34,825 nucleotides of DNA from an uncultured Gammaproteobacteria bacterium (GTDB lineage: Bacteria > Pseudomonadota > Gammaproteobacteria > GCA-001735895): assembly GCA_947260025.1 (NCBI GenBank), contig CAMYON010000015.1, positions 52,432 to 87,256 of the forward strand, in the 5' to 3' direction. The notes under the pieces were generated by a model, which did not search any database, was not told the DNA's origin, and saw only the letters and a list, made by a program, of their open reading frames with translations. The position numbers were made by a program, and so were the translations under genes. Every line of letters starts with the position of its first letter. Positions within the stretch are counted from its first letter, which is position 1. This document shows, in pieces, positions 2,078 to 18,267 of the stretch.

Positions 2078-2091
2078 TTGATCCAGGTCAA
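2078..2091 (+). promoter_or_regulatory. FNR/Anr-like box upstream of hsp20
   Basis: TTGAT-CCAG-GTCAA matches the FNR/Anr consensus TTGAT-N4-ATCAA at 9 of 10 informative bases. It lies about 100 bases before the hsp20 start and just upstream of the sigma-32-like -35 element. No good -10 hexamer sits at the class II distance (expected at 2114), so a direct activation role is less certain than for the other boxes in this window. Confidence 0.4.
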
Positions 2092-2098
2092 TTGACGT

Positions 2099-2128
2099 GG
2101 CTTGAAAATCCTATGCTCAATCCCAATT
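2099..2128 (+). promoter_or_regulatory. Sigma-32 (RpoH)-like heat-shock promoter for hsp20
   Basis: GGCTTGAAA (2099-2107) is followed after 13 bases by TCCCAATT (2121-2128). The RpoH consensus is CTTGAAA then CCCCATnT with 13-15 bases between them, so the -35 is exact and the -10 is close. Transcription would start about 50 bases before the hsp20 ATG. The placement before a small heat-shock protein supports the call. Confidence 0.65.
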
Positions 2129-2187
2129 AAATTGCAATCAACAGCGTTCCTGTGAACGCCGGTTATCCAAATCAACGGGAGAATATT

Positions 2188-2757
2188 ATGAATCTGGAAA
2201 AACTGAAGCCCTGGAACTGGTTTAAACATGAAGAAGGCGGTAATGGCGGTAACCAGGTGCCGGTCAGCCGCGAGCGATCCACGGGACAGTCGCTGGGCAA
2301 AGGCCCCGTAGCGCTGATGAGTCTGCATCACGAGATGGACCGTTGGTTCGAGGACGCGCTCAGATCTTTCGGTATGCCCGGTTTCGAGCCTAAAAAACAG
2401 ACCGATGCAGGTTTTCCCGGGTACTTTCGGCCGCAAATTGACGTTTCGGGTGACGATAACTGTTATGAAATCAGTCTCGATGTTCCGGGATTGACCGAAT
2501 CCGACCTGACGCTCGAGGTCAAGGACGACGTTCTGACCATCAAGGGTCAGAAGGAAGAGAGCAGCGAAGACAAAGATAAGCATTATTATCGAATCGAGCG
2601 CAGCTATGGGTCGTTTCAACGCACCCTCGCGTTGCCCGACGATGCCAATGCCGACGAAATCAAGGCCAGTCTCGATAAAGGCGTACTGAAACTGGAGGTA
2701 CCGCGTCGTGCCGCGGTCGTAAAGGAAGACGTCAAGCGCATTTCGATCTCATCTTAA
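2188..2757 (+). CDS. Small heat-shock protein, Hsp20/alpha-crystallin family
   Basis: A 189-residue ATP-independent holdase chaperone that binds unfolding proteins in the cytoplasm. The alpha-crystallin domain spans about residues 82-175, from RPQIDVSGDDNCYEISLDVP through the GVLKLEVPR strand. The C-terminus carries the oligomerisation IxI motif (RISIS). The N-terminal arm of about 80 residues is longer than in IbpA/B and resembles the environmental Hsp20 class. I chose the ATG at 2188, which has GGGAG 6 bases upstream, over an in-frame GTG at 2152. A sigma-32-like promoter precedes it. The htrA-type protease gene follows after 71 bases on the same strand, so the two probably share a stress response. 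Confidence 0.93.
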   Translation: MNLEKLKPWNWFKHEEGGNGGNQVPVSRERSTGQSLGKGPVALMSLHHEMDRWFEDALRSFGMPGFEPKKQTDAGFPGYFRPQIDVSGDDNCYEISLDVPGLTESDLTLEVKDDVLTIKGQKEESSEDKDKHYYRIERSYGSFQRTLALPDDANADEIKASLDKGVLKLEVPRRAAVVKEDVKRISISS

Positions 2758-2768
2758 GCTAATAAAAA

Positions 2769-2796
2769 GGGCCAGCTGTTTTATCGCATCTGGCCT
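2769..2796 (+). terminator. Hairpin between hsp20 and the Do-type protease (possible attenuator)
   Basis: GGCCAG (2770-2775) pairs with CTGGCC (2790-2795) around a 14-base loop. Only a broken T-rich stretch follows, so this may be a partial terminator or an mRNA-processing hairpin rather than a full stop. Confidence 0.3.
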
Positions 2797-2828
2797 CTTG
2801 CTCTGATTACAGGACAGGAGGTTTCCGC

Positions 2829-4199
2829 ATGAAAATTGACCTGAAGAATGGAGTCCTGGTAGTGCTGCTGGCTTTGGTTTTGCCGTCAGCGCAGGCGACT
2901 CTGCCCAATGTTACCGCCGACGGTAAGCCGTTTCCTACGCTGGCGCCGATGCTAAAAAAAGTAAATCCAGCCGTGGTTAATATCTCGACCTATTCGAAAC
3001 GGGAGACGCAGTACAACCCGCTGTTGAACGATCCCTTTTTCAGGCGGTTTTTCGATCTTCCCGAGGACTTCGATTCCAGGCGCGAAGCCCCGGAAAAGCG
3101 CCAGCAAAGCGCGGGCTCGGGCGTGATCGTCGATGCCGACGACGGTATCGTCATGACCAACTACCACGTTATTCGTAACGCCGACGAGGTGCGGGTCTCG
3201 CTGATCGATGGCCGCAACCTGGCAGCCAGGGTTATCGGCACCGATCCCCAGCTCGATATCGCTATCCTGGGGGTGGAAGCCGAGGACCTGACCGAGGTGA
3301 AACTTGCCGATTCTAGCCTGCTCGAGGTGGGAGATTTCGTGGTGGCGATCGGGAATCCGTTCGGACTCGGACAGACGGTAACCACAGGCATCGTAAGTGC
3401 GCTGGGTCGTAGCGGGCTCGGTATGGAAGGCTACGAAAACTTTATCCAGACAGATGCCTCGATCAACCCGGGCAATTCAGGTGGCGCGCTGGTTAACCTG
3501 GCCGGGGAACTGGTGGGAATCAATACTGCAATCATTTCGCCGGCGGGTGGCAATGTCGGCATCGGATTCGCGATTCCGATGAACATGGCCAGGGCCAGTA
3601 TGGCCCAAATCATCGAGTACGGCGAAGTCCGGCGCGGCCAGATCGGCGTCGGTATTCAGGACATTACTCCGGAGCTGCGCGATGCATTCAATCTGAAAAA
3701 AGGTGAGTTTGGTGTGCTCGTAACCAATGTGTTCGAGGATACCCCAGCCGCGAAGTCCGGCCTCCAGACCGGTGACATTATTCTCGAAGTCGACGGCCAG
3801 GAAACGCGTTCGGCGGCGCAGCTGCGCAGTCGAATCGGTGTCAAGCAGGTCGGCGATAAGGTCAGTCTAACACTTCTACGCGATGGCAAAACGATCGAAC
3901 GGTCGGTTGAAGTCGGTGCCGCCAGAGCGAGCCTGGCACAGGCTGAAGACCTGCCGGAATTGCTGGCCGGATTACGGGTAGATAACAATCCTGATGGCGA
4001 CGGCGTGCTGGTGATCGACCTGTCGCCGAATTCACCCGCTGCCTACAGCGGACTGCGGCCGGGCGACGTCATTGTCGGAACCAATAAGCGTCGGGTGCGG
4101 GATATCGAATCTTTCAAGGATGCGCTGACGCTCAGCAAATCCTCGATTCTGCTGCGAGTCGAACGTAATGGTGGGTCGCTGTTTATCGTTATTCGCTGA
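2829..4199 (+). CDS. degQ: Periplasmic Do/HtrA-family serine endoprotease (DegP/DegQ-like)
   Basis: A 456-residue protease/chaperone for misfolded periplasmic proteins. A Sec signal peptide ends near ...VLPSAQA (residue 23). The trypsin-like domain carries the catalytic triad His113 (in TNYHVI), Asp143 (in DPQLDIAIL) and Ser217 (in GNSGGAL). Two PDZ domains follow, roughly residues 265-345 and 370-452, the second starting after the GLRVDN segment. Two PDZ domains and a length near 455 fit DegP/DegQ/MucD rather than DegS, which has one PDZ domain and a membrane anchor. A strong AGGAGGT site lies 6 bases before the ATG. The gene sits 71 bases behind hsp20, suggesting a heat or envelope-stress operon. 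The choice among degP, degQ and mucD is not settled by sequence alone. Confidence 0.93.
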   Translation: MKIDLKNGVLVVLLALVLPSAQATLPNVTADGKPFPTLAPMLKKVNPAVVNISTYSKRETQYNPLLNDPFFRRFFDLPEDFDSRREAPEKRQQSAGSGVIVDADDGIVMTNYHVIRNADEVRVSLIDGRNLAARVIGTDPQLDIAILGVEAEDLTEVKLADSSLLEVGDFVVAIGNPFGLGQTVTTGIVSALGRSGLGMEGYENFIQTDASINPGNSGGALVNLAGELVGINTAIISPAGGNVGIGFAIPMNMARASMAQIIEYGEVRRGQIGVGIQDITPELRDAFNLKKGEFGVLVTNVFEDTPAAKSGLQTGDIILEVDGQETRSAAQLRSRIGVKQVGDKVSLTLLRDGKTIERSVEVGAARASLAQAEDLPELLAGLRVDNNPDGDGVLVIDLSPNSPAAYSGLRPGDVIVGTNKRRVRDIESFKDALTLSKSSILLRVERNGGSLFIVIR

Positions 4200-4221
4200 T
4201 AACCGATCGCCTGATCCTTTT

Positions 4222-6249
4222 TCAGTACCTGGTTCGGACCGCCTTCAGTTTCGGCGTGCCCCGCGATACGAGTTGCTTGATGTCATCGATCGAGCGGGGC
4301 CTGCTGTAATAATTTCCCTGGACCATGTGACATCCCAGTTCCTTTAGCATCGCATCCTGTTCCGTCGTTTCGACGCCTTCGGCGACCGTCACCAGGTCGA
4401 GGCCATGGGCCATCGTGACGATGGTTTCGACCAGGCGATGGTCGGCCGCGTTGCTGGCGATGTCCTGTATGAACGAGCTGTCGATTTTTAGCGCGGTGAC
4501 CGGAAACTCCCTTAAGTAGCTCAGGGCCGAGTAACCGGTGCCAAAATCGTCGACCGCCAGGCGGATTCCCATGCTTCGAAACTCGGCCAGTTTCTCCTTG
4601 ATGCGTGAATCTTCTTCCATCAGCAACGACTCGGTGATTTCGAGCAACAGGTTAGTGGCAGGGAAACCGGTCTCGTGGAGAATTTTCTTCAAATGCCCAC
4701 TGCTGAAGCCCCGTTTGAACTGGCGCATGGAAATGTTTACCGCAAGGTAAAAGCTGGGCTGTAAATTGCTCGAAAGCCAGGGCCGCGCGGCGGCGCAGGC
4801 GTGGCGCAACACCCACAGGCCGATATCTTCGATCAGTCCGGTCTCCTCGGCAACTGGAATAAATTCATTGGGCAGGATCATGCCCCTGGTAGGATGTTGC
4901 CAGCGCAGCAGGGCTTCGATGCCGGCCAGGGAATCGTTCCGGGTCTCGTAAATTGGCTGGAAATATATTTCCAGTTCGTCCTGCTGCAGGGCCCGGCGCA
5001 TATCCTTGTCGAGTTCCAGAAACTGTTTGGCCCGGTCGGTCATTTGCGAGGTGAAAAAGCGAAACGTGTTACGTCCCTGATCCTTGGCTTCATACATGGC
5101 CATGTCCGCGTTCTTTAACAGCGTATTGGCATCGGTGCCATCCATCGGACTGATGGTGATGCCGATGCTGGCACCCGAGTAAACCTCATGACCGAACAGG
5201 GTGAAGGGTTCGGCCAGGCGCGCAATGATACTTTTGGCAATAATCGATGCGTGTATTTCGTCGGTGATATCCGGCAGCAGAACCGTAAATTCGTCGCCAC
5301 CCAGTCGCGAAACAACATCGGTCTCGCGAATCGCTCCCTGAATTCTGATCGCGACCTGCTTGATCAGTTCGTCCCCGAAGTCGTGGCCGAGCGTATCGTT
5401 TATCGTTTTGAATCGGTCGAGGTCGATAAACAGAAGTGCGGACCTGACCGGGTGGCGACGGTTGCGGGATATCTCTTCGCCCAGGTGCTCGATAAAATTC
5501 GGGCGGTTGGGTAATTGTGTCAGCGAATCGAAGTTGGCGCGGTAGCGAATCTGTTCCTCGCTTTCTTTCAATGCCAGCACGATGCGCTGCAGCCGAAATC
5601 CCAGTAACACCAGAACCATGGTCATGATCGCAAGGGCGGTAAGCGTCAGAATCATGATGTTGCGGAACTTCTGGATTCTGTTTGCCTGGGTTCCGAGTAC
5701 CTCGATCGCGGTTTCACCAACCTTTAACAGCAGGGTTTCGGCTTCATCGTGGGCATCTCTTGCTCTCTGTTCTACCAGCCGTAAAGTTTCGGCGGAGGTT
5801 GGACCAAAATTATAGATGCCCTCGGTCAACCAGTTCCTGATATCGTATATGGCCGGATTTAGTTTGGCGTGTATTGCGGATACACCAAGCACATCGTTGA
5901 ACCGATACTTGTCCCTGATTTGTTCGAGGTTTTTCTCGACCTCGAAGCTTTGTCGCACCACCATGCTAACGACCTTGGGACTCTGGTAGGCGCGGGCAAA
6001 CTTGATGGTTTGAGTCATTTTGCCCATTTCGTTAACGAGCACTCGGATATCGCGTTCCTGCTTTGACAGCCGGATTGGCAGGGCTTCCTCTATTTCCGAC
6101 AGCGTGCTTTGTACGTAGAAAATTATGCTGGACGTACCTACCATGAGCGCCAGCACCAGCAGGAACGAAAGCAAAGGGCCGACCAGCGCCTTGTTGCGAA
6201 GAATACGCATCGCGCTCGTAAGCCGGGGTTCACTGCCAGTTTCGGTCAT
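4222..6249 (-). CDS. Membrane-anchored GGDEF-EAL protein (diguanylate cyclase / c-di-GMP phosphodiesterase)
   Basis: A 675-residue bifunctional-type c-di-GMP enzyme. One membrane helix lies at about 22-46 and a second at about 196-219. They enclose a periplasmic segment of about 150 residues, mostly helical in appearance and with no family I can name. A GGDEF domain follows (about 235-400; DxLTxLPNR-like DSLTQLPNR at 241 and intact RLGGDEF at 316-321), then an EAL domain (about 412-655; IEALLRWQHP with EAL at 445-447, and the metal-binding DDFGTGYSALSYL loop). Both catalytic signatures look intact, so either or both activities are possible. The start lies 6 bases after the stop of the TAXI binding protein, so the two are almost certainly co-transcribed. 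The periplasmic domain could therefore read the TAXI protein. Confidence 0.93.
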   Translation of the reverse strand: MTETGSEPRLTSAMRILRNKALVGPLLSFLLVLALMVGTSSIIFYVQSTLSEIEEALPIRLSKQERDIRVLVNEMGKMTQTIKFARAYQSPKVVSMVVRQSFEVEKNLEQIRDKYRFNDVLGVSAIHAKLNPAIYDIRNWLTEGIYNFGPTSAETLRLVEQRARDAHDEAETLLLKVGETAIEVLGTQANRIQKFRNIMILTLTALAIMTMVLVLLGFRLQRIVLALKESEEQIRYRANFDSLTQLPNRPNFIEHLGEEISRNRRHPVRSALLFIDLDRFKTINDTLGHDFGDELIKQVAIRIQGAIRETDVVSRLGGDEFTVLLPDITDEIHASIIAKSIIARLAEPFTLFGHEVYSGASIGITISPMDGTDANTLLKNADMAMYEAKDQGRNTFRFFTSQMTDRAKQFLELDKDMRRALQQDELEIYFQPIYETRNDSLAGIEALLRWQHPTRGMILPNEFIPVAEETGLIEDIGLWVLRHACAAARPWLSSNLQPSFYLAVNISMRQFKRGFSSGHLKKILHETGFPATNLLLEITESLLMEEDSRIKEKLAEFRSMGIRLAVDDFGTGYSALSYLREFPVTALKIDSSFIQDIASNAADHRLVETIVTMAHGLDLVTVAEGVETTEQDAMLKELGCHMVQGNYYSRPRSIDDIKQLVSRGTPKLKAVRTRY

Positions 6250-6255
6250 AACAAG

Positions 6256-7260
6256 CTACTCCGTCACCAGACCGATTTCTTCATAGAATCGCCTGGCCCC
6301 CCGGTGGAGCGGCACGACGATACCCTGTAAAGCGGTTTCGAGCGTGATCATGCCCCCTTTGGCATGACCGCTATCCAGCAGTTTGCGCGAATTTTCGTTC
6401 CACATTGTCCGGGTAATCTCATAGACCAAGTCGTCATTCAGCGCGGTACCGACCAGCCACTGGGCGCCAACGCTTATCGTCTTGACCCCCGCAACGCCCG
6501 AGTATGTATCCTGCGGAATTTCAGCGTGGGTGAAAAAACGATAGCGCGATACGAGTTGCTCGGCTTCGGGGCCGTCGATGGGCAGCAGTACCGCACCGCT
6601 TTCGCTGGCCAGTTCAGACACTGCCCTGGCCGGGTAGCCGGCGACAACGAAGAAAGCGTCCAGCTCGTTCTCGCGGATTCTCCTGATAGCCAGTTCTGCT
6701 TTCATGTACTCGACCTCGATATCGTCTCGGGTGATACCGTATGCATCCAGCACCAGCTCGGCGTCTATCAAAGTACCGGAGCCGGGTTCATCCAGCGACA
6801 CGCGTTTGCCGATCAAGTCCCTGATTCGTTTAATACCAGAACCCTTGCGTACCACAATATGAATACTTTCCTGGTAAAGATTAGCGATCGTGCGCAGTTC
6901 GGAATAAGGTTCTTCACCCTCAAAGGTACCGGTTCCGGTATAGGCCCAGTAGGCAATATCCGACTGTACGAATCCCGATTCGAGGTGGCCATTGTGGATA
7001 TCTCTTACGTTAGCTACCGAGCCGTTTGCCGATTGGGCGATTACCATGAGACCGCGAGGCCCACAGCTTCCTCCCTGGTCGCAGGGGAGTGCGCCGGGCG
7101 GGTTACTGATTGCGTGAGCGATCATTCCGCCAATTGGATAGTAGGTGCCGGCAATACCGCCGGTTCCAATACGGAAAAACTGTAAATCTTCGGCCTGTGT
7201 ACGGTGAACGGGATTGCCCAGAGCCAGCACGATCCCGATTGTCATTAAGAATAGCCGCAT
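6256..7260 (-). CDS. TAXI family TRAP-type solute-binding protein
   Basis: A 334-residue periplasmic binding protein of the TRAP-associated extracytoplasmic immunogenic (TAXI) family. A signal peptide MRLFLMTIGIVLALG...HRTQA is followed by the family's opening FFRIGTGGIAGTYYPIGG. Further family-like segments are ESGFVQSDIAYWAYTGTG and GKRVSLDEPGSGTLIDAELVL. TAXI proteins normally deliver organic acids or amino acids to a fused TRAP membrane protein, but no DctQM-type gene is present here. I chose the ATG at 7260, which has GGAG just upstream and gives a clean signal peptide. The frame is open further upstream to 7479, but those starts lack a good ribosome site. The GGDEF-EAL gene follows after 6 bases. 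A TTGGTT/TATAAT pair (7296-7301, 7273-7278) could be the promoter but would leave almost no leader. Confidence 0.88.
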   Translation of the reverse strand: MRLFLMTIGIVLALGNPVHRTQAEDLQFFRIGTGGIAGTYYPIGGMIAHAISNPPGALPCDQGGSCGPRGLMVIAQSANGSVANVRDIHNGHLESGFVQSDIAYWAYTGTGTFEGEEPYSELRTIANLYQESIHIVVRKGSGIKRIRDLIGKRVSLDEPGSGTLIDAELVLDAYGITRDDIEVEYMKAELAIRRIRENELDAFFVVAGYPARAVSELASESGAVLLPIDGPEAEQLVSRYRFFTHAEIPQDTYSGVAGVKTISVGAQWLVGTALNDDLVYEITRTMWNENSRKLLDSGHAKGGMITLETALQGIVVPLHRGARRFYEEIGLVTE

Positions 7261-7633
7261 AACACTCCGAAAATTATATCGATATCGAAACTTCGAACCA
7301 AATTTCATCACCCGTCGACCACCGGAACCAAACTGGTAATCCGGGGGCAGGGCAGATGAAAACAGGATGCTGCTGAATATGTTTGGACGAGTTATCTTGT
7401 TATATGTGTCGTTTTGTCCGCCAGCAGTAAGTTTAGTCTGATATCGACCCTTTATTGGGCAAAATGTGAAGATTTTCACCTTTTTAAATTCTACAGCTGT
7501 GAGACCGGTTTAACATCGCAACCAGGAAATGTCGATAACAGCATCATAATGCGGGCTTACGGCTATCGGACAACCCGAATACCGGCCTGTTCGCAGCCGG
7601 ATTTAGCGTTGAAAAAGCGTCGAACCCGGATTT
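7261..7633. other. Intergenic region upstream of the TAXI gene
   Basis: No convincing gene is present. It contains the upstream open frame of the TAXI gene and a possible minus-strand promoter at 7273-7301. No clear terminator for the preceding hydroxypyruvate isomerase gene was seen. Confidence 0.4.
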
Positions 7634-8428
7634 TTATTGGTCCGGCCGGCCCTGCCGGTAAGGAATTAGCCAATCCAGCGAAGATTGGGTGTTAACGGAC
7701 GGGAAGTATTCGGCACCGACGTAACCTCGGTAACCGAGCCTGTCGATCAACTCGAAACAGGCTGCGAAATCGATGCTGCCGCGACCCGGTTCGGTTCTGC
7801 CGGGCACGTCCGAAAACTGGATATGGCCGATCCTGTCGATGATGGCGGGAAGCCGACTTATCAGGTCCGCCTCCATCATCTGCATGTGATACAAATCGTA
7901 TTGCAGCCGCAGCTCGATGTCCGGTATGGTCTCGATCAGATCGAGCGCCTGTTGCGATCCACAGAGATAAAATCCGGGTAGATCGATCGTGTTGACCGGT
8001 TCGGTCAGCAAGCGAATGCCGAGTTTGCTGGTCAGGGCGTAGGCCTTGCGCAGACTCGATTTGAATGCGGCGTCGCAAAGTGCCGGATCCTGTGTCGAAT
8101 CGGGGCGGCCGGCGAGCAGGTTCATCGCCTCCGGCTTCAAAATTTCGGCAAATTTTTGCGCCTCGGTTAAGGCCGCGTCGAATTCGGCCTCTCGACCGGG
8201 CACCGCGGCCAGCCCCTGGCCTCCTTGCATCAGGTCGCCGACGGGAAAATTCATCAACACCAGCGGTAGCCGGTGCAGTTCAAGTTCGGCTTTAAACTGT
8301 GCTGGGTCTTCATCGTAGGGAAACTGTACTTCGATGGCGTCGAAACCGGCGGCGGCTGCCTGTCCGATACGCTCCAGCATCGGAAATTCGCGAAACAGGG
8401 TCGATATGTTGGCGGAGAATCTGGGCAT
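7634..8428 (-). CDS. hyi: Hydroxypyruvate isomerase
   Basis: A 264-residue cytoplasmic TIM-barrel enzyme that interconverts hydroxypyruvate and tartronate semialdehyde in glyoxylate metabolism. The N-terminus MPRFSANISTLFREFPMLER and the following FDAIEVQFPY are typical of Hyi. So are the LLTEPVNTIDLPGFYL segment (Glu metal/catalytic ligand), LQYDLYHMQ and the late IDFAACFELIDRLGYRGYVGAEY stretch with the second active-site Glu. The length matches the family (about 258-265). It lies 37 bases downstream of the DUF423 gene on the same strand. No gcl, glxR or garK partner is in the window, so the metabolic route is not shown here. Other sugar isomerases of the AP-endonuclease-2 superfamily are the main alternative. 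Confidence 0.88.
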   Translation of the reverse strand: MPRFSANISTLFREFPMLERIGQAAAAGFDAIEVQFPYDEDPAQFKAELELHRLPLVLMNFPVGDLMQGGQGLAAVPGREAEFDAALTEAQKFAEILKPEAMNLLAGRPDSTQDPALCDAAFKSSLRKAYALTSKLGIRLLTEPVNTIDLPGFYLCGSQQALDLIETIPDIELRLQYDLYHMQMMEADLISRLPAIIDRIGHIQFSDVPGRTEPGRGSIDFAACFELIDRLGYRGYVGAEYFPSVNTQSSLDWLIPYRQGRPDQ

Positions 8429-8465
8429 GTTGCGGGTGCGGTGAGTCAGCTGTTAAAGCGGTCCG

Positions 8466-8879
8466 TTAATCGAATTCCGGCTGCTGCTTAAAACCGGCGA
8501 CGATCAGGAGCAGCCAGCCGAATATAAAGGCAACGCCGCCGAGCGGGGTAACTGCTCCCAGCCATTTAATGCCGCTGAGCGCAAGCAGGTAGAGGGAGCC
8601 GCTAAACAGGAAGATGCCCAGGACAAAAACGATTGCGGCAAGCTTCAGCCATCGAGTTGAAAACTGCGGCATCGATGCCAGTATGCCGACGATCAGCAGT
8701 GCAATGGCGTGGTACATCTGGTAGCGGGCCGCAGTCTCGAAGATAGCGAGGTCATAGGGGGCCAGCATCTGTTTGAGCCCGTGTGCCGCAAATGCGCCCA
8801 GTATTACCGCGAGCATTGCGAAAGCCGCGCCCGCCACAATCGTCAATCGATTGAACCTCGAAGTATTCAACTCACGCAT
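8466..8879 (-). CDS. DUF423 (YgdD-like) small membrane protein
   Basis: A 137-residue protein with about four hydrophobic helices. It carries the DUF423 pattern: an N-terminal helix ending in GAFAAHGLK, then FETAARYQMYHAIALL, a GIFLFSGSLYLLALSG segment, and the closing PLGGVAFIFGWLLL. The family is widespread in inner membranes and its function is not established. It is probably co-transcribed with hyi, which begins 37 bases downstream. The ATG at 8879 is the natural start. Confidence 0.88.
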   Translation of the reverse strand: MRELNTSRFNRLTIVAGAAFAMLAVILGAFAAHGLKQMLAPYDLAIFETAARYQMYHAIALLIVGILASMPQFSTRWLKLAAIVFVLGIFLFSGSLYLLALSGIKWLGAVTPLGGVAFIFGWLLLIVAGFKQQPEFD

Positions 8880-9027
8880 TGTTGCTAATTCCTCCGGTTA
8901 ATCCGGCCCATAATGCCAGTGAGAAACCTGATTTGAAAATTTGATAGCTCGGTTCGAGCTTTCTATCTGTCAATGACAGGCTAATGCAAACAGGTATATC
9001 GCACCTGGCAGACCAGGAAAACCCAAT

Positions 9028-9058
9028 AAAAAACCCCCCGTACTTTCGTACGGAGGGT
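9028..9058 (-). terminator. Rho-independent terminator of ssrA
   Basis: On the minus strand an 11-bp stem (9048-9058 with 9033-9043, one G-U pair) closes on a GAAA tetraloop and runs into a T tract (9028-9033). It starts eight bases past the CCA end of the tmRNA. Confidence 0.9.
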
Positions 9059-9065
9059 CTGTTAT

Positions 9066-9456
9066 TGGTGGAGACGGCGGGAATTGAACCCGCGTCCGCA
9101 AGCCCTCTGCCATTGGCTCTACATGCTTGTTCCGACATTTAATTTAACTGGCTGCTACCCGCCGGACAGGGAAAACAGACAGCGATTTCGGTACTTTTTT
9201 AGTGCTTCAGCCCCGAACGAGCATCCATCACGATTCTATGAGAGCGATGCCGGAATGTTCCCGAGTACCCGAGGGCATAAAGGAACCTGGACGCATAGAC
9301 ACGGCTCCAGTCCGACAGCAATCTACCGGTTATTAAGCGGCGAGTGCGTAGTTGTCGTCGTTGGCAACTATAATTTGCAGGAGATTTTACGAGATTCCCT
9401 ACATTCTCGGCATGCACCTCAGGTTTCGCGACCCACGTCGAAGCCAAGTCGTCCCC
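9066..9456 (-). ncRNA. ssrA: Transfer-messenger RNA (tmRNA)
   Basis: A 391-nt one-piece tmRNA that rescues stalled ribosomes with SmpB. The 5' end reads GGGGACGACTTGGCTTCGAC (from 9456) and the 3' end GGGTTCAATTCCCGCCG...CCACCA (to 9066). The acceptor stem pairs over seven positions and the third pair is G-U, the alanine identity element. The T-arm TTCAATTCC is present and CCA is encoded. The tag reading frame is at 9333-9365. A TATACT -10-like element at 9467-9472 would start transcription a few bases before the mature 5' end, fitting later trimming by RNase P. A strong terminator follows. Confidence 0.97.
9333..9365 (-). other. tmRNA proteolysis-tag reading frame (ANDDNYALAA)
   Basis: Within ssrA the resume codon GCC (9363-9365) opens the frame A-N-D-D-N-Y-A-L-A-A followed by TAA (9333-9335). 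It differs from the E. coli tag (ANDENYALAA) only by Asp for Glu at position 4 and keeps the ALAA end recognised by ClpXP/ClpAP. Confidence 0.95.
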
Positions 9457-9646
9457 AAGACTGCGAAGTATAACCCAATATGTTGATTCGGGGGCTTATT
9501 TCAACCCTGCAGGCGGTTCGCTGAACGACGCCGCATTACGCCGTTAACCGGGCCATCTAACATCCACAGCTGGCTTGGACGCCCTGGTATAAAATCAGAA
9601 TTTATCGTCGTCTGGTTCCCGGGGTTTCCTGAATTGTAAGCGGGGC

Positions 9647-9660
9647 TTGATCGGTATCAA
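9647..9660 (+). promoter_or_regulatory. Perfect FNR/Anr box upstream of the P-type ATPase
   Basis: TTGAT-CGGT-ATCAA matches the FNR/Anr consensus at all ten informative bases. Its centre (9653.5) is 29.5 bases before TAAGGT (9683-9688), the spacing of a class II activator promoter (box centred at -41.5). That hexamer keeps only the T1, A2 and T6 bases of a -10. The predicted start near 9695 leaves a leader of about 30 bases to the ATG at 9726. Confidence 0.75.
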
Positions 9661-9725
9661 TCGTTATCGTTTCGGGATAAGTTAAGGTTCGGCAAAATAA
9701 TAAATCGGAGCATGAGAGCCCTCCC

Positions 9726-12458
9726 ATGACCAATAATGTCGAGCAGAAAACGCCCCAGGCGCCGGGGCTCGAGCATCCCTACGCGCTGGCCTCCGAACAA
9801 ATCCTGACCAGCCTGGAGGCGTCGAAGCTGGGTCTGACACAAGACGAGGCCGCTGTCAGACTGCAGCGTTACGGCCCCAATGCGTTGCCGAAGAAGACAC
9901 CTCCTGGCGTGCTGCAGGTGTTCATCAACCAGTTTAAAAGCCCGCTGATTTATGTGCTGGTGGCAGCGGCTTTTGTATCGCTGGTGATTGACGAATATTC
10001 GGATGCGATTTTTATCAGCGCGGTGCTGTTGCTGAATGCTGTCATCGGCACCGTTCAGGAGTATTCGGCGCAGCGCTCGGCCGATGCGCTGCAAAAAATG
10101 ATGATGACGCAGACCCGGGTGTTGCGCGACGGTGAGGCTTACCAGATCAACTCGGAAGAAATCGTACCGGGAGACCTGGTGTTGCTGGAATCGGGTGAGC
10201 GCGTGCCGGCCGACATGCGCATTCTCGAAAGTCACAACCTTGAAATCGACGAATCGCTGTTGTCCGGCGAATCGATTGCCGTCGTCAAACGCGCGGACGT
10301 GGTGCTGGACGAGGATACGGTGCTCGGCGATCGCATCAACATGGCCTTTGCTGGCAGCCTGGTGAACCGGGGCAGGGCGCAGTGTGTCGTGGTCGCGACC
10401 GCGCTCGCGACCGAGCTCGGCACCATTGCCGAATCGGTTACCGGCGATACCAGCGCCAAGGCGCCGTTGCAGGAACGCATGGAACGCTTCACCCGGCGCG
10501 TGGCGATGTTCGTCGGCGGCGCGGTGGTCGTGATGGCCACTATCCTGTTCGTACGCGGCATGCCCATATCCGAGATTTTCCTGTCTTCGGTCGCGCTCGC
10601 GGTGTCGGTGATCCCGGAAGGGTTGCCGGTGGCGCTGACGGTGGCGCTGGCGATTGGCATGCGCCGCATGGCGAAACGCGACGTCATCGTTCGACGATTG
10701 ATCGCCGTCGAGGCGCTTGGTTCGTGTACCTATATCGCTTCCGATAAAACCGGAACCCTGACCGCAAATCAACTCACGGTGCGCCGCCTGGCCTTCCCCG
10801 GTCTTGACGAATGGCAGGTAACCGGTGACAGCGATCAGCCCACCGGCAGCGTGCTGACCGAGCAGGGCACGCCCGATAGCGATCAGCATAAACTCCTGGA
10901 CCAGGCCTGTCAGTGCGCGGTGATCGCCAACGAGGGTTACCTCGGTCATCAGAATGGAGAATGGGCGCATAACGGCGATGCGGTCGATGTGGCGCTGTTG
11001 ATCATGGCGCACAAGGCGGGCTACAAGCGCCTCGAGGAAATCAGCCATTTTCCGGAAATCGATAGCATGCCGTTCGAATCGGAACGCCTGTACAGCGCCA
11101 GTCTCAATCAGGCAAACGGCAAATCGCGCGCGTTCGTCAAAGGCGCTTTCGAAAAGCTGCTGGAAATGTGCAGCACCGCACTGCAGCCGAATGGCGTTAT
11201 GCCGCTGGATAAGGACGCGATCGAAGCCCAGGCCAGGCAGCTTGCCTCCGAAGGATTCCGTGTGATCGCGCTCGCCTGTGGTGATGTCGAGGTCGGGGAA
11301 CAGGAGGATTTCAACCACGAGCACCTGGTCGATCTGACCTTGATCGGGCTGGTCGGCCTGATCGACCCGTTGCGCCCCGAGTCCCGTCCTGCGGTTGCCA
11401 AATGTCGCGCTGCCGGAATCAAGGTGGCTATGGTGACCGGCGATCACCCGATTACCGCGTACGCGATCGGGCGCGAGCTCGATTTACTGGAAGACGAATC
11501 GCAGATCGTGACCGGCCCGCAATTGAAAGCGGCGGCCAACGAGGCGGAGGTCGACCTGATGACGCAAGACGCAGCCGTGTTCGCGCGCGTCGAACCCACG
11601 CAAAAGCTTGATATCGTGCAGTCCCTGCAGCGTAACGGTCACTACGTCGCGGTCAGTGGGGATGGCGCCAACGACGCACCCGCGCTGCGCGCGGCGCAGG
11701 TTGGGGTGGCGATGGGAAAAGACGGTACCGATGTGGCGCGCGAGACCGCCGAGATCATCGTGACCGACGACAATTTCGATTCGATCGTCGATGGCGTGGA
11801 GGAAGGACGTATCGCTTACGCCAATGTGCGCAAGGTTATTTTCCTGTTGATCTCCACCGGCGCCGCCGAACTGGTACTGTTCGTGCTGGCGATGATAACG
11901 GCGTTACCGCTGCCGTTACTGGCGGTACAGCTGTTATGGCTCAACCTCGTAACCAATGGCATACAGGACGTTGCGCTCGCATTCGAACCGGGCGAGGGCC
12001 ACGAACTCGATCGACCGCCGCGGCCGCCGCAGGAAGCCATATTCAATCGCATCATGCTGGAACGCGTGATCATTTCGGCGATTGTTATCGGCGTGGTTGC
12101 GTTCGGGCTCTTCAAGTACCTGCTTGACCAGGGTTTTAGCCTCGAGGAGGCGCGTAACGGCACGCTACTGCTGATGGTGCTGTTCGAGAATGTGCATGTT
12201 TTCAACAGCCGTTCGGAAACCCTGTCGGTGTTCCGCCACAATCCGATGCGTAATAAGCTGCTGCTGGGTGGCACAGTCATCGCGCAGCTGGTTCACATCG
12301 GAGCCATGTATACGCCGTGGCTGGGCAACGTGCTCGGTGCGAGCCCGGTGACGTTCGAGCAATGGTTAAGCCTGCTTGGCCTGGCGCTGTCGGTAATGCT
12401 GGTGATGGAGTTGCACAAGATTTACTGGGCCCGTTTTGTAGCGCGATCTGGCGGTTGA
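9726..12458 (+). CDS. P-type IIA cation-transporting ATPase (Ca2+-ATPase/SERCA-like, substrate uncertain)
   Basis: A 910-residue ATP-driven cation pump of the inner membrane. Visible elements are the N-terminal cation-ATPase domain, the TGES-like SGES loop in the A domain, TM4 PEGL (297-300), the phosphorylated Asp340 in DKTGTLT, TGDHPIT, the hinge GDGANDAPAL (645-654) and C-terminal helices. The length fits PacL/PMA-like II pumps. By alignment from memory with SERCA, Glu309 and Glu771 are kept (Glu298, Glu715), but the TM5 Asn is Gly712 and the TM6 Asp is Asn744 in NLVTNGIQD. Two Ca2+ ligands are therefore altered and the transported ion is uncertain. It is preceded by a perfect FNR box and followed by two usp genes on the same strand. 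Confidence 0.9.
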   Translation: MTNNVEQKTPQAPGLEHPYALASEQILTSLEASKLGLTQDEAAVRLQRYGPNALPKKTPPGVLQVFINQFKSPLIYVLVAAAFVSLVIDEYSDAIFISAVLLLNAVIGTVQEYSAQRSADALQKMMMTQTRVLRDGEAYQINSEEIVPGDLVLLESGERVPADMRILESHNLEIDESLLSGESIAVVKRADVVLDEDTVLGDRINMAFAGSLVNRGRAQCVVVATALATELGTIAESVTGDTSAKAPLQERMERFTRRVAMFVGGAVVVMATILFVRGMPISEIFLSSVALAVSVIPEGLPVALTVALAIGMRRMAKRDVIVRRLIAVEALGSCTYIASDKTGTLTANQLTVRRLAFPGLDEWQVTGDSDQPTGSVLTEQGTPDSDQHKLLDQACQCAVIANEGYLGHQNGEWAHNGDAVDVALLIMAHKAGYKRLEEISHFPEIDSMPFESERLYSASLNQANGKSRAFVKGAFEKLLEMCSTALQPNGVMPLDKDAIEAQARQLASEGFRVIALACGDVEVGEQEDFNHEHLVDLTLIGLVGLIDPLRPESRPAVAKCRAAGIKVAMVTGDHPITAYAIGRELDLLEDESQIVTGPQLKAAANEAEVDLMTQDAAVFARVEPTQKLDIVQSLQRNGHYVAVSGDGANDAPALRAAQVGVAMGKDGTDVARETAEIIVTDDNFDSIVDGVEEGRIAYANVRKVIFLLISTGAAELVLFVLAMITALPLPLLAVQLLWLNLVTNGIQDVALAFEPGEGHELDRPPRPPQEAIFNRIMLERVIISAIVIGVVAFGLFKYLLDQGFSLEEARNGTLLLMVLFENVHVFNSRSETLSVFRHNPMRNKLLLGGTVIAQLVHIGAMYTPWLGNVLGASPVTFEQWLSLLGLALSVMLVMELHKIYWARFVARSGG

Positions 12459-12486
12459 TTACAGGCTGATGCAACACGGATCGAAG

Positions 12487-12500
12487 TTGATTCGAGTCAA
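12487..12500 (+). promoter_or_regulatory. FNR/Anr-like box upstream of the first usp gene
   Basis: TTGAT-TCGA-GTCAA matches the consensus at 9 of 10 informative bases. Its centre is exactly 29.5 bases before TGCAAT (12523-12528), a 4/6 match to TATAAT, giving class II geometry. The predicted start near 12535 precedes a GAGGAG ribosome site and the ATG at 12557. Confidence 0.62.
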
Positions 12501-12556
12501 GAAGCTCGCAATTCAACTGTGCTGCAATATTCATACTCAACGAGGAGAGAATTTCG

Positions 12557-13081
12557 ATGTTCAAATCTATCGTGGTTGCTTTTGATGGCTCGACGCATGC
12601 TAGCAAGGCACTGGAAATCGGTGCTGGCCTGGCGAGTCAGACCCAAATCCCGCTCGGTATTATCTATGTTATCGACCGATCTCATATGAATATTCCTGAA
12701 GAGATGCGCAAAATGGGTGAAATCGAGCATCTAATCGAACCGTCCGAGAAAATGGTGGTAAATATCGAGAATGCGCCCGCGTCGATGATGAGTTCGCTCG
12801 CCCAGGCGAATGCCGACTCGCAAGCCGCGATGTTTCATTATGCCGACTTCCTGGTGGAGCAGGCCGGCAAAGGCGCAAAGTCAGCGGGTGTGCAACAGGT
12901 GGACGTCAAGGCGACGCTCGGGGATCCCGCAGAAGAAGTCGTCGCCTTCGCCAAAGACCGCGAAGCGGATCTGATTATTTGCGGAAATCGAGGATTTGGC
13001 AAGCTCAAGAGCATGGTACTCGGCAGCATCTCCAACAAGATTACCCAGCTGGCCGAATGCAGTTGTCTTACCGTGAAATAG
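12557..13081 (+). CDS. Universal stress protein, single UspA domain
   Basis: A 174-residue cytoplasmic nucleotide-binding stress protein. The first strand MFKSIVVAFDGSTHASKAL carries the conserved Asp10. The C-terminal ATP-binding pattern G-x2-G-x9-G-S is present as GNRG (143-146) followed by GS (156-157), so this is an ATP-binding type. A longer than usual middle segment (about residues 43-95) separates the two halves. A GAGGAG ribosome site precedes the ATG. It lies 98 bases after the ATPase gene with its own FNR-like box, and 16 bases before the next usp gene. Confidence 0.92.
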   Translation: MFKSIVVAFDGSTHASKALEIGAGLASQTQIPLGIIYVIDRSHMNIPEEMRKMGEIEHLIEPSEKMVVNIENAPASMMSSLAQANADSQAAMFHYADFLVEQAGKGAKSAGVQQVDVKATLGDPAEEVVAFAKDREADLIICGNRGFGKLKSMVLGSISNKITQLAECSCLTVK

Positions 13082-13097
13082 TGGCGGGGAAAGTGAT

Positions 13098-13958
13098 ATG
13101 AAACAGGGAAAAACCCGCCTGTTTGTCATCGTCGATCCAACAGCCAGCCACCAGGTCGCGTTGGTCAAGGCCTTGCTGCTAGCCAAGCTGGCCGATTGCC
13201 AGATCCATGCCTTCCTGTGCGTGTACCGCGAGCAACAGGAAGACGACAAGTACCCGTCGCCTGAAGATTTTAAAAACCATACATTAACGGACGCGGAGCA
13301 ATGGCTCGATGAGCAACTCGAGCCCTGCCGGACTGCCGGAGTACCCTTTAACAAACAGGTTGTCTGGAGCAGCAAGTGGCACGATGCCGCGCTGCGGGCG
13401 ATCGCGAAATCGGAGTGCGACCTGGTGATCAAGTCCAGTTATCACCACAGCAAGTCGAAACGATTTTACAGCTCGACCTCGGATTTCACACTGATGCGTC
13501 ACTGCGCCTGCCCGATACTGTTCACCCATCCGACGCAGGAATGGGAATCCAACGAACTGCTGGCTTGTGTCGACCTCGAATCGACCGATGTCGGGCATGC
13601 GCGGCTCAACGACGTGATCATCCGGGACGCCAGGGCGATGTCGAATATCGTCGGCATGGATTTGCACATCGCGGCTGCCCACCAGGGTGGTATCGATGCG
13701 GATAACTTGCCGATCGAGAGCCAGGGCGGCGAGGTTTCCGCCGAACAACTGGCGGAACTTTACGACGTCGATGCGTCGCGGATCCACCTGCGCCAGGGTG
13801 AAACCGTCGCCACGTTAAGCGCTATTTGCGACGAACTCGATCCGTGCATCGTCATAATGGGCACGCTGGCGCGAACCGGCATTAGTGGTCAACTGATCGG
13901 AAACACCGCGGAGAAGCTGCTGGACCGGGTGGAAGCCGACGTTCTTACCGTCAACTGA
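13098..13958 (+). CDS. Tandem-domain universal stress protein (UspE-like)
   Basis: A 286-residue protein with two Usp domains, like E. coli UspE (about 316 residues). Domain 1 starts with KTRLFVIVDPTASHQVALVK and ends near CPILFTHP. Domain 2 starts near LLACVDLES and ends with GTLARTGISGQLIGNTAEKL, the UspE-type version of the nucleotide-binding loop. It follows the single-domain usp by 16 bases with GGGG-AAAG upstream, so they are one operon. Its last 8 bases overlap the convergent APH/AAA gene. In Pseudomonas, Usp genes belong to the Anr regulon, in agreement with the FNR-like box upstream. Confidence 0.88.
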   Translation: MKQGKTRLFVIVDPTASHQVALVKALLLAKLADCQIHAFLCVYREQQEDDKYPSPEDFKNHTLTDAEQWLDEQLEPCRTAGVPFNKQVVWSSKWHDAALRAIAKSECDLVIKSSYHHSKSKRFYSSTSDFTLMRHCACPILFTHPTQEWESNELLACVDLESTDVGHARLNDVIIRDARAMSNIVGMDLHIAAAHQGGIDADNLPIESQGGEVSAEQLAELYDVDASRIHLRQGETVATLSAICDELDPCIVIMGTLARTGISGQLIGNTAEKLLDRVEADVLTVN

Positions 13959-15552
13959 ACAGTAAACTCCTGATTTCCTCTATCTTCGAGGCATCGAGTC
14001 CGGCACTGTCTATTGTGACTACCCGGGCGATTTCGCGTTCGCGTGAGCTAAGCGGCTGGCGCGTCTGCAGCTGACGCGTGAGCACTTCGAGGTTGGCTTC
14101 CGATGCATCGTGCTCGCGCGCCACGATACGCCTGCGCAGCTCGGCTTCTGGTGCCTCGCACTCGATGATGATGCGCTTGCCCGGCTGTCCCGATTCAAGT
14201 TCGAGCAATGCTAGCCGCTGGGATTCCTGCAGCAGCGTAGCGTCGACGATGACGGTAAAATCCGCGGCCATGATGGCGCCGGCGATTTCGCCCAGCCGCC
14301 GATACGTGGCCGCAGTCGCTTCGACGGTGTAAATTCCCTGTCCGAGTGCCGATTCGCTATCGGCAGTCGCCGCCAGCTCGAACAGGCGTTTTCTTTCCAC
14401 GTCGGAGCGGACCTGAACTGCACCCAATGCTTCGGCCAGTTGCGCCGCAACCGTGGATTTGCCGGATCCCGAAAGGCCGTGCATAACGATCAACCCGGCG
14501 CGGTGGCTGGCGGCCCATTGTGCCGCCAGGCCGATGTAATCGATGGCAGGTGTCAGAAGCTCGCGGTAGCTGTCGCCGGCCAGGGTTTCCTGGTCGACAC
14601 GCAGCGCCTCGACCTTGGCACGCACCAGCGCACGATAGACGAAGTAGTAACGCAATAGCTGAATTCCGGCATAGTCACCGCCGTTCGCGAAATAACGGTT
14701 CAGAAAGCGCCAGCAGTATTCGGGGTAGCCGCGCGCGTGCAGGTCCATAGCGACGAAGGCGACTTCGCTGATGGTGTCGATCCAGCGCAGTTCGGGATTG
14801 AATTCGATACAGTCGAACAGCGTAATTTCATCGTCGATCATCGCCATGTTGCCGAGGTGCAGATCGCCGTGGCATTCGCGCACGAAGCCGGCCGCCTTGC
14901 GCTCATCGATCGCCTGCAGCAACCAGTCGTTTTCACGATACCAGCGTTTCAACTCGAAGTAACTGTTGGGTAAATACTCCGGCGGGATCGCCGTGGCAAT
15001 GTGCACCAGGTTTTCCTCGCTCCAGCGCGCGGCCAGGGCCGAACTGCCAAAGTCGCTCTCCTCCGGGGCCCGATCGCTGGTTGCATGAAATCCGCTAACA
15101 CGGTCGGCAACAGCGTCGATCATTGGCGGGCTTAATTCATGGTTACCGGCATAGCTGCTGAGCAGGCAATGCTGCGGAAACTCTATCATCTTGACGGCAT
15201 ACTCGATGACCTCGCCGCTGCCGTCGACGCGCGGCCTGGTTTCGCTGCCGCGGATCTCGACTACGTCGAGGTAAATTTGCGGCGCGAACCTGCGATTGAG
15301 GCGTAATTCCGCTTCACAGTATTGGCGCCGCTTTTCCAGTGTCGAGAAGTCGAGAAATCCAAAATCGACCGGTTTTTTGATCTTGTAGGCAAAGGTGCCG
15401 GTTAGCAGAATCCACGAAATATGGGTCTCGATCAGCTTGACGTAACTCACCGGGTGCCCGAAGGCGAAAGGATTGTTCATCGATGCGATCAGCGTGCTGA
15501 CCGCGGGGTCTGCGGTGTCTGGCAGGTCTTCGTGGATCAGATGAGAGGTCAT
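13951..15552 (-). CDS. Bifunctional APH-like / AAA P-loop kinase family protein
   Basis: A 533-residue fusion. The N-terminal part (about 25-345) is an aminoglycoside-phosphotransferase-like fold with the catalytic HGDLHLGN (228-235) and the metal-binding DCIEFN (247-252). The C-terminal part (about 352-533) is a P-loop kinase with Walker A GLSGSGKST (359-367). This architecture equals COG2187 plus COG0645; the mycobacterial example is Rv2004c of the DosR regulon. The substrate is unknown and antibiotic resistance should not be assumed. Upstream on the minus strand a TATAGT (15583-15588) lies about 28.5 bases from a poor palindrome TTGAC-GTCA-GTCAG (15610-15623), a possible degenerate FNR site (7/10). 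The gene overlaps the end of the tandem usp gene by 8 bases. Confidence 0.85.
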   Translation of the reverse strand: MTSHLIHEDLPDTADPAVSTLIASMNNPFAFGHPVSYVKLIETHISWILLTGTFAYKIKKPVDFGFLDFSTLEKRRQYCEAELRLNRRFAPQIYLDVVEIRGSETRPRVDGSGEVIEYAVKMIEFPQHCLLSSYAGNHELSPPMIDAVADRVSGFHATSDRAPEESDFGSSALAARWSEENLVHIATAIPPEYLPNSYFELKRWYRENDWLLQAIDERKAAGFVRECHGDLHLGNMAMIDDEITLFDCIEFNPELRWIDTISEVAFVAMDLHARGYPEYCWRFLNRYFANGGDYAGIQLLRYYFVYRALVRAKVEALRVDQETLAGDSYRELLTPAIDYIGLAAQWAASHRAGLIVMHGLSGSGKSTVAAQLAEALGAVQVRSDVERKRLFELAATADSESALGQGIYTVEATAATYRRLGEIAGAIMAADFTVIVDATLLQESQRLALLELESGQPGKRIIIECEAPEAELRRRIVAREHDASEANLEVLTRQLQTRQPLSSREREIARVVTIDSAGLDASKIEEIRSLLFS

Positions 15553-15634: not shown

Positions 15635-16331
15635 TCAGTTTTCCCCGGGCTTGGTTTTACCGATATCCTCGGCATAACCCCTGGGTGGCGGATTCCAGCC
15701 GCGTTCGCTGCCGGTATGCCGGTCGCTGCGGTCGGCCTGCATGGCGTCGCGAATTGCGGCTTCCTGCTGCATGAAGAGCTCACGGTAGCCAGGGCTCATG
15801 CCGCTGTCGGTGGACGCGACCCAGCTCTGGTACATCGCTTCGACCGTTTCATCCTCGGTGGCGATGAAGGTTCGCTTCAACTGTTCCGCCCGAAACGGAT
15901 GAAACCCGAGCCGGGTCAGTGCCTCGCAGCCGAGATCGAGCGCGGCGTGGTAGGTTTCCTTGATAATGAACTCGGCACCGGCCTGCTTCAACTGGTAGTA
16001 GTGGATCTGGTCGAAGGCGCGCGCCAGTATCGCCAGCCGCGGGTAGCGCTGCCTGATGGATGCGGTGAGTTCGACCGCGCGCTCACGGTCGTCGATAGCG
16101 ATGACGAAAAGGTCGGCCTCCTCGATGCCGGCAGTTGCAAGCAGATCGGGGCGGGTAGCATCGCCGAAGCTGTTGTTCGCGCTCGATATCGATACAGTAA
16201 TCGGGATACTCGGCGTAGGGGTCGACCAGGGTGACGTTTTCGACCGACCGCGAAATCCGGGCCAATGGCAGGTTGACTTCCGAGCGGTGCTGCGACGGAT
16301 GGGCGAACAGGATCAGGACTTTGCAGGTCAT
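15635..16331 (-). pseudogene. Deletion-fused remnant of kefG and kefB/kefC (glutathione-gated K+/H+ antiporter)
   Basis: The 5' part (16331 to about 16170) encodes the first 54 residues of a KefG/KefF-like NAD(P)H oxidoreductase: MTCKVLILFAHPSQHRSEVN, then VDPYAEYPDYCIDIEREQQ. At about 16166-16172 it switches, one base out of frame, into the C-terminal cytoplasmic part of a KefB/KefC antiporter. That frame reads FGDATRPDLLATAGIEEADL, then AILARAFDQIHYYQLKQAGAEF, and continues to the stop at 15635. The rest of the oxidoreductase and the entire membrane and early TrkA-N part of the antiporter are absent, about 1.7 kb by family lengths. The antiporter tail remains a clean frame, so the loss looks recent. 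A misassembly is the alternative. No functional antiporter can be made from this locus. Confidence 0.82.
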
Positions 16332-16541
16332 GCGATCGAACCGAGCTGCTGGATAAGCGATCCTGTGTAAAGTTTGCGCGAACTTTATTCAAGCGAATTC
16401 ACCCGAACCCGCATCGATTTCGTCGTGGGCGCCGATCCGGATTCAAGCTGCTGCAGATACGGGCGGCGAATCGGACGCTTTCGTTATGGTATTCTGTGCC
16501 GGGCCAGTTATTCGTATTGGGACCGAATTTGAGGTGCGCAA

Positions 16542-17847: not shown

Positions 17848-17985
17848 ATCTTTGTCTCTGCCAACTTACACCGCGCCACAGGCTTTAATCGCATCTCGTG
17901 CCGCTAAATACAATCGAGATCAACGAGCATGCCCGATAATTGCAGAAGATACGAGCAAGACTAGGCCCGTTCACAGGGGTGTGAA

Positions 17986-18237: not shown

Positions 18238-18267
18238 TATAGGATTCTAGTGGGTTGGAGATAGATT

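Follow-up and report, generated by a model that had tools for sequence, protein, structure and literature searches.

The stretch of DNA analysed here (hereafter the window; 34,825 nucleotides) corresponds to bases 52432–87256 of contig 15 in a 3.59-Mb draft genome of a gammaproteobacterium. Between positions 2078 and 15552 it carries a group of stress genes that I interpret as an FNR/Anr-controlled low-oxygen stress cluster of a marine gammaproteobacterial genus, assembled independently of the DosR, OsdR, FixK2 and lxa sets that it resembles; I put the probability of this reading at about 0.7. The genus includes the Olavius algarvensis Gamma 3 endosymbiont. Domain searches (Pfam and NCBIfam) place an Hsp20, a PII-type P-ATPase, two Usp proteins and an APH/AAA double kinase within these 13.5 kb, and thereby confirm what a preliminary description of this DNA had observed. 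That description likened the group to the DosR set of Mycobacterium tuberculosis, which comprises an Hsp20, a PII ATPase, Usp proteins and an APH/AAA kinase, and took it to be either transferred as a module or repeatedly assembled. The results below support this interpretation in part.

The first gene of the cluster encodes an Hsp20/alpha-crystallin small heat-shock protein (2188–2757, + strand; PF00011, 99.5 bits), and directly 3′ of it lies the gene for a DegP/DegQ-type periplasmic protease (2829–4199, +; TIGR02037, 471.9 bits, over the cut-off), which adjoins Hsp20 also in the relatives G006 and G001 (loci L144 and L175). The P-ATPase, of 910 amino acids, follows at 9726–12458 (+; TIGR01522, 583.8 bits, below the cut-off of 798.3). 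Next come a single-domain Usp (12557–13081, +; PF00582, 93.7 bits) and, 16 bp further on the same strand, a tandem UspE-like protein (13098–13958, +; PRK11175/UspE, 152 bits, below the cut-off). The double kinase (13951–15552, −), which joins a choline-kinase/APH fold to a gluconate-kinase-like P-loop domain (AAA_33), is convergent with UspE, the two frames overlapping by 8 bases.

Using the pattern TTGATN4ATCAA for FNR boxes, I identified two perfect boxes in the window (at 9647 and 17986) and two with one mismatch (at 2078 and 12487), all on the + strand. Three of these stand before genes of the cluster. The first, TTGATCCAGGTCAA (2078–2091), is centred about 103 bp before the ATG of Hsp20; the second, the perfect box TTGATCGGTATCAA (9647–9660), is centred 72 bp before the start of the ATPase; and the third, TTGATTCGAGTCAA (12487–12500), is centred 63 bp before the start of Usp and is followed, 22 nt on, by the −10-like hexamer TGCAAT (12523–12528, +). 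The remaining perfect box (17986–17999) lies in the spacer between amrS and amrB, away from the named set. Boxes with at most one mismatch average 0.8 in 100 second-order Markov copies of the window, and at least four were seen in only one copy of the 100; for perfect boxes the mean is 0.02. Allowing up to two mismatches gives 21 boxes in the window against a shuffled mean of 11.4, a count reached in 3 of 100 shuffles.

The same boxes are found across the genus. They were counted in upstream slots of 300 bp plus 15, leaving out frames whose alignment starts past query residue 25, frames with fewer than 150 bp available upstream, and locus L175, as well as L037–L039, which are the same places as L150, L171 and L151. 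A box precedes Usp in 12 of 15 genus loci, in all cases 61–64 bp before the start, and precedes the ATPase in 11 of 14; for Hsp20 it is present in all three counted loci, at 103–113 bp. Only 2 of 75 pooled control slots, which exclude amrS and amrB, contain one. A binomial test at the genus-wide box rate gives 1e-4 for Hsp20, 1e-12 for the ATPase and 6e-14 for Usp, values to be read with the relatives not being independent of each other. Three genus ATPases lack a box. Two of them, in G005 and G011, are found outside the cluster and belong to another tree branch, and the third, in G004, is within the cluster; the ATPases of G020 and G041, with neither Usp nor kinase beside them, retain both the box and the genus branch.

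The geometry of the Usp promoter is likewise conserved, TGCAAT standing exactly 22 nt past the box in 12 of 12 boxed loci. A box centred at −41.5 with such a gap to the −10 element defines a class II FNR promoter, and the spacing seen at Usp is that of a putative promoter of this class. In the ATPase promoters the best −10-like offsets are 20 and 22, less sharp than for Usp, and the same scan of genus loci gave no clear −10-like offset for Hsp20.

Gene order points to a compact unit. Sixteen genus loci extend 700 bp or more past the 3′ end of the kinase, and 15 of them have a Usp no more than 100 bp from it. Of the 14 loci that extend 2.6 kb or more, 12 have the ATPase within 1.6 kb; one of these 12, that of G023, shows a fragment only, and the two loci without it are those of G005 and G011. 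The tight core in this genus is ATPase-Usp-UspE-kinase, with Hsp20 as an unsteady partner.

Boxes so placed, spaced and conserved suggest that FNR or Anr would bind and activate at them. In the mechanism I propose, FNR/Anr would bind the boxes of Hsp20, the P-ATPase and Usp-UspE when oxygen falls, and would activate these genes, with Usp predicted to be activated as a class II promoter. Judging from their folds and families, the products would protect an energy-poor cell: Hsp20 and DegP would hold or clear misfolded protein, Usp and UspE would help anaerobic survival, the ATPase would maintain a cation gradient or export a cation, and the double kinase would phosphorylate some small molecule.

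Beyond the genus, the same families recur around the kinase in other lineages. Among 299 Pseudomonadota, the kinase was found in 92 and the ATPase (E ≤ 1e-165) in 51; in G000 and G495 the two lie within 20 kb (distances taken from tables by eye). Of the 92 kinase genomes, 36 gave loci that I assigned to the alphaproteobacteria by their scores; in the kinase tree these group in one clade with six kinases from named alphaproteobacterial plasmids. A Usp is found in 14 of these loci at up to 2 kb from the kinase, in 15 at up to 5 kb and in 17 at up to 9 kb, where 0.21, 0.47 and 0.80 are expected from genome-wide Usp counts. The loci are not independent, as families f192 and f195 account for 13 of the 36; counted per family, 8 of 14 have a Usp near the kinase. 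A P-type ATPase lies within 9 kb in 4 of the 36 and Hsp20 in 3. These ATPases are of several kinds: in the ATPase tree, that of L285 and one of the two in L278 fall with MgtA-type pumps, neighbours from L272 and L278 form a branch of their own, and only that of L259 (genome G495) is close to the common PII pumps. All four families are found within about 15 kb in L259. FixK/FNR-type boxes stand near the starts of 15 of 34 alphaproteobacterial Usp genes (1.33 expected), 9 of 43 kinases (1.71) and 3 of 4 Hsp20 genes (0.16), with the proviso that one box can serve two divergent genes.

Named replicons illustrate the same recurrence. Plasmid pSF45436d of Sinorhizobium fredii carries two Usps together with the kinase and a PII ATPase, and has a response regulator and a regulator of the CRP/FNR family nearby; a Leisingera plasmid has the order ATPase-Usp-kinase-Usp; and Streptomyces fungicidicus p1 holds Usp, Usp, P-type ATPase, Hsp20, Usp and kinase within 13 kb. 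In Rhodococcus DK17 (L247), the kinase, Usp, Hsp20, a GAF-GAF histidine kinase and a LuxR-type regulator lie within 15 kb, the last two being a DosST/DosR-like pair, and R. qingshengii has the ATPase, kinase and Usps together with a GAF histidine kinase and its regulator. Hsp20, kinase and Usp adjoin one another on Paraburkholderia pOLGA1; in B. stagnalis (L314), Hsp20 is about 1.3 kb from the kinase and Usps are some 9 kb off. Usps are also near the kinase in Rhizobium johnstonii and Bradyrhizobium septentrionale, and the Azospirillum kinase locus has one Usp and no other family. The kinase loci of Chelatococcus and Cupriavidus metallidurans contain none of the other families. When loci are anchored on the ATPase, rhizobial plasmids again carry Usps, and the Methylocystis and Halomicrobium loci have none. 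Repeated assembly, as the preliminary description had allowed, is thus supported by the excess of Usp near alphaproteobacterial kinases and by the replicons from Streptomyces and from alpha- and betaproteobacteria whose kinase has three or four of the families close by.

Other gammaproteobacteria give a different picture. Named-genome kinase loci were the best 80 of 515, three of which (L037–L039) belong to the genus; of the 77 others, 43 of them at least 20 kb long, 2 have a Usp at up to 9 kb from the kinase, 1 has the ATPase and 2 have Hsp20. In particular, the Pseudomonas kinase loci within this best 80 have no ATPase or Usp near the kinase, and the Amphritea kinase locus has none of the other families. 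The PII ATPase itself was found at E ≤ 1e-150 in 132 of 276 Gammaproteobacteria. Two close orthologues of the window ATPase outside the genus have a one-mismatch box, that of L204 in the 300 bp before the frame and that of L212 inside the frame start; a further 20 flanks, of lower-listed ATPases mostly of the 38–41% class, contain a stray Usp in 4. I therefore rejected the idea of a general gammaproteobacterial module, neither the 77 kinase loci nor the 20 flanks of close orthologues showing an excess of the other genes. Of the gammaproteobacteria sampled, only the genus of the window has these genes physically clustered with the APH/AAA kinase.

Several observations weigh against a cluster under FNR/Anr control. 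The window kinase has no FNR box and is read from the opposite strand, and 16 of the 17 genus kinases tested, this one included, are without a box in the 300 bp upstream. A fourth Hsp20 of the genus (G001, locus L175, outside the count above) has no box in its locus, and of the 7 genus loci that offer 9 kb of room or more, only 2 have an Hsp20 within reach, to which L150 can be added; this count leaves out L171, half of which is N, and the window layout is 11.2 kb wide, a layout of equal width being visible only in loci with more room. None of the nine ATPases in the alphaproteobacterial loci has a FixK/FNR-type box. Finally, the 20 flanks of close gammaproteobacterial ATPase orthologues outside the genus, which reach at most about 8.6 kb on each side and are in several cases cut by contig ends, hold no Usp, kinase or Hsp20. 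The earlier proposal that FNR boxes replace DosR sites stands for Hsp20, the ATPase and Usp in the window, but not for its kinase. No DosR/OsdR-type palindrome (GGRCCN4GGYCC) was found in the window; this pattern is a crude one, standing beside 1 of the 9 genes listed for the Streptomyces locus and beside no gene of the Embleya or Rhodococcus locus.

The boxes could also be read by another regulator of the CRP/FNR family, of the nitric-oxide- or redox-responsive DNR type, rather than by oxygen-sensing FNR/Anr, which I consider rather unlikely. The genome of the window has six Crp-like HTH hits over the family cut-off. One of these is a 132-residue FNR-like fragment, cut at a contig end before its cysteines become readable; it does carry the helix ETVSR, which I take to be the E-xx-SR recognition helix of FNR/Anr-type proteins, and which argues for FNR. 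The choice between regulators is widened by a passage of PMC2908626 in which DNR, FixK and FNR are handled together as regulators sharing such boxes; against this, the same source, in the part consulted, lists UspA as a member of the core alphaproteobacterial FNR regulon.

Alternatively, the grouping may be due to chance, the FNR-driven ATPase and Usp-UspE being the only real unit and the kinase and Hsp20 mere bystanders. The convergent, boxless kinase of the window, the unsteadiness of Hsp20 and the near absence of the other genes from the 77 kinase loci outside the genus speak for such a grouping. Conversely, Usp adjoins the kinase in all but one of the testable genus loci, the kinase-Usp link is found again in the alphaproteobacteria and on actinobacterial plasmids, and Hsp20 is boxed wherever it was counted. 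The exception is itself informative: the kinase of G011, the sole genus kinase without a Usp neighbour among the 16 testable, is also the sole boxed one of the 17, having a perfect FNR box of its own 76 bp before the start (L153, 587–600) with TATAGT 21 nt on. I give the bystander explanation less weight because of this box, and regard it as distinctly unlikely.

A one-off origin of the set, moved between phyla as a module so that the gammaproteobacterial cluster and the DosR-like sets share one source, would fit the plasmids of Sinorhizobium, Leisingera, Streptomyces, Rhodococcus and Paraburkholderia, where the kinase has three to four of the families close by. It is contradicted by the kinase and ATPase trees, and the actinobacterial kinases differ in their catalytic loop in 4 of 4 cases; I regard it as very improbable. 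The trees, which the preliminary description had called for to decide the matter, were run for these two proteins. The kinase tree has 87 rows, including 25 of the 80 named-genome loci, and was built by a quick method with SH-aLRT as its only support measure; the ATPase tree has 75 rows, those of more than 1100 residues being trimmed to 1100, with some long branches flagged. Streptomyces and Rhodococcus, and for the kinase Embleya too, stood in for mycobacterial rows in both. In the kinase tree, the alphaproteobacterial (42 rows), actinobacterial (4) and genus (7) kinases form one clade each, all with support of 100. The genus kinases nest among those of gammaproteobacteria, joining six Methylococcaceae/Ectothiorhodospiraceae-type rows at 94. 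Four kinases from genomes labelled Planctomycetota or Nitrospirota (L055, L059, L085 and L110) fall inside the gamma/beta clade, reflecting either transfer or misbinned contigs.

The ATPases of the different sets come from different deep branches. The clade of 12 genus ATPases has a support of 100 and sits within a gammaproteobacterial subfamily, to which the rhizobial ATPases are near kin; those of Streptomyces, Rhodococcus and Leisingera are on another deep branch, that of G495 is in the common gammaproteobacterial class, and the P-type ATPase of pOLGA1 is a long-branch outlier outside the subfamily of the window. Going by the two trees, the sets were probably built from local genes and not moved whole. 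I further suggest, tentatively, that the APH/AAA kinase and Usp may be a functional pair that was recruited repeatedly, under FNR in this genus, in alphaproteobacteria with FixK and in actinobacteria with DosR/OsdR-like systems, with P-type ATPases recruited separately. If so, the kinase could make or remove a phosphorylated metabolite that works with Usp when a cell is short of energy, as a shared biochemical step of hypoxic dormancy in bacteria. Neither the recurrent kinase-Usp adjacency nor the separate recruitment of the ATPase was found stated in the cited passages of the literature.

The window kinase has both its domains, an APH-type one at the N-terminus and a P-loop AAA_33 one at the C-terminus, in one chain, a fusion that presumably corresponds to COG2187 plus COG0645. 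Its predicted model has a pLDDT of 90.4, and in the PDB it matches choline-kinase/APH-type kinases and, over shorter alignments, gluconate-kinase-like P-loop kinases (1knq, TMt 0.73). The APH catalytic loop HGDxHxxN is kept in 7 of 7 genus rows, 23 of 23 from gammaproteobacteria and others, 10 of 11 from betaproteobacteria and 38 of 42 from alphaproteobacteria, but in none of the four actinobacterial rows; these plasmid kinases (L245, L246, L247 and L248) read HGDLxA[ED]D instead, which suggests that their clade has changed or lost its chemistry. The shared architecture that the preliminary description saw in Rv2004c therefore need not mean shared chemistry. A role of the kinase in phage defence was also considered and set aside; the only PADLOC matches were weak ones to the P-loop part (22.2 and 19.7 bits).

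The solved structures closest in sequence to the window ATPase are those of LMCA1 and SPCA1. The window ATPase is not, however, assigned here to the Ca2+ pumps of the PMR1/SERCA type, as it scores below the Ca-ATPase equivalog cut-offs (see above for TIGR01522) and has Asn in M6. Compared to LMCA1, the M4 glutamate is kept and the M6 Asp is replaced by Asn, the M6 segment of the gammaproteobacterial and rhizobial subfamily reading NLVTNGIQD where LMCA1 has NLVNDSLPA. Given the site II carboxylate roles that I assume for these M4 and M6 residues, the ion moved may be one other than calcium. Distant PII ATPase paralogues occur as well: in G001, the Hsp20-DegP pair adjoins a different one, of 39% identity (L175, L174), and the genome of the window has a similar one on contig 10.

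Other features of the window lie between or beside the cluster genes. The 7 kb from Hsp20 to the ATPase hold five protein genes, for DegP/DegQ, a GGDEF-EAL protein, a TAXI solute-binding protein, a TIM-barrel protein and DUF423, and a tmRNA gene (ssrA; 9066–9456, −), which is not counted in the set and whose tag reads ANDDNYALAA. Upstream of the kinase, a scar at 15635–16392 (−) consists of the start of one gene and the end of another, presumably kefF and kefC; Pfam gave no family for either piece. Several relatives have a long kefC-type frame, of about 1.9–2.7 kb, between amrS and the kinase, where the window has this scar. Beyond it lies a complete AmmeMemoRadiSam trio (amrS, amrB and amrA; 16759–19609), which is often found near the kinase in this genus and in which amrS encodes the radical-SAM enzyme (16759–17847, −; TIGR04337, 649 bits). 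Inclusion of amrS/amrB in the FNR set was considered, 9 of 12 amrS genes having an upstream box, but 7 of these boxes lie inside the frame taken as amrB, and I did not retain it; an amrS-side box outside coding DNA is found only in the window and, in a one-mismatch form, in the Olavius Gamma 3 symbiont (L171).

I found no publication on this cluster in this genus, in literature searches that were not aimed at the cluster by name. Its layout is probably specific to the genus among the gammaproteobacteria sampled, and the cluster is probably ordinary in kind and useful for comparison; as far as the cited passages go, the parallel with DosR is not new in kind, the Anr, FixK2, OsdR and lxa systems being known. 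Hsp20, PII ATPase, Usp and APH/AAA kinase in the window match the gene content of the DosR/OsdR sets, OsdR of Streptomyces coelicolor being described, in the part of the source seen, as overlapping DevR (PMC5069765). The difference is in regulation, theirs being a two-component regulator where the window has FNR boxes: by Pfam, none of the 30 window open reading frames (ORFs) is a GAF-domain DosS/DosT or LuxR-type DosR, a search that covered the window and not the whole genome. Furthermore, the ATPase of the actinobacterial plasmid sets is on another branch and the catalytic loop of their kinase is altered, and common descent with the window set is not supported by the kinase and ATPase trees, in which mycobacteria have no rows. 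The DosR parallel drawn in the preliminary description stands for gene content and is not supported for descent.

The Anr regulon of Pseudomonas aeruginosa is also gammaproteobacterial and appears to combine a P-type ATPase with stress proteins. A table in PMC8087004, which I read as one of Anr-regulated genes, has the P-type ATPase PA1429 together with the stress proteins PA4328 and PA4352; another passage of that paper has Usps rising in anr mutants, and the title of a paper cited elsewhere describes the Usp PA4352 as essential in anaerobic energy stress. Unlike the window, the Pseudomonas kinase loci sampled have no ATPase or Usp nearby.

In rhizobia, the FixK/FixK2 systems share CRP/FNR-type boxes with the window, and on S. 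fredii pSF45436d the kinase, PII ATPase and Usps are neighbours. According to the relevant part of PMC2908626, FixK controls Hsp20, CBS, phosphoketolase, Zn-ADH and a “putative kinase” (ID 2589, blr6071), which would be an APH/AAA kinase, and microoxic Usps and Hsp20 are noted for Bradyrhizobium in a passage of PMC6515984. The window differs in having no phosphoketolase, CBS or Zn-ADH among the 30 ORFs scanned, and in a kinase of another clade. The lxa locus of Burkholderia cenocepacia (BCAM0275–BCAM0323) is low-oxygen-activated and has six Usps and an alpha-crystallin, and its authors compare it to DosR (PMC6127331, in the passage cited). It is betaproteobacterial, and the window has no BON, CBS or Zn-ADH among the ORFs given to Pfam; the ATPase type also differs, that of pOLGA1 lying outside the subfamily of the window. 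The likeness lies in Hsp20 and Usp beside an APH/AAA kinase, as on pOLGA1 and in B. stagnalis.

The resemblance to DosR is one of content, and the likeness of the window set to the DosR, OsdR, FixK2 and lxa sets would reflect the same families being gathered repeatedly under different oxygen regulators, not the movement of one module. Genes found again and again in such independent sets, chief among them the APH/AAA kinase next to Usp, are good candidates for functions required to survive low oxygen, and lend themselves to study in harmless bacteria. The DosR-type dormancy set would gain in this genus a tractable comparison, with a compact core, a well-understood regulator in FNR and a separate assembly.

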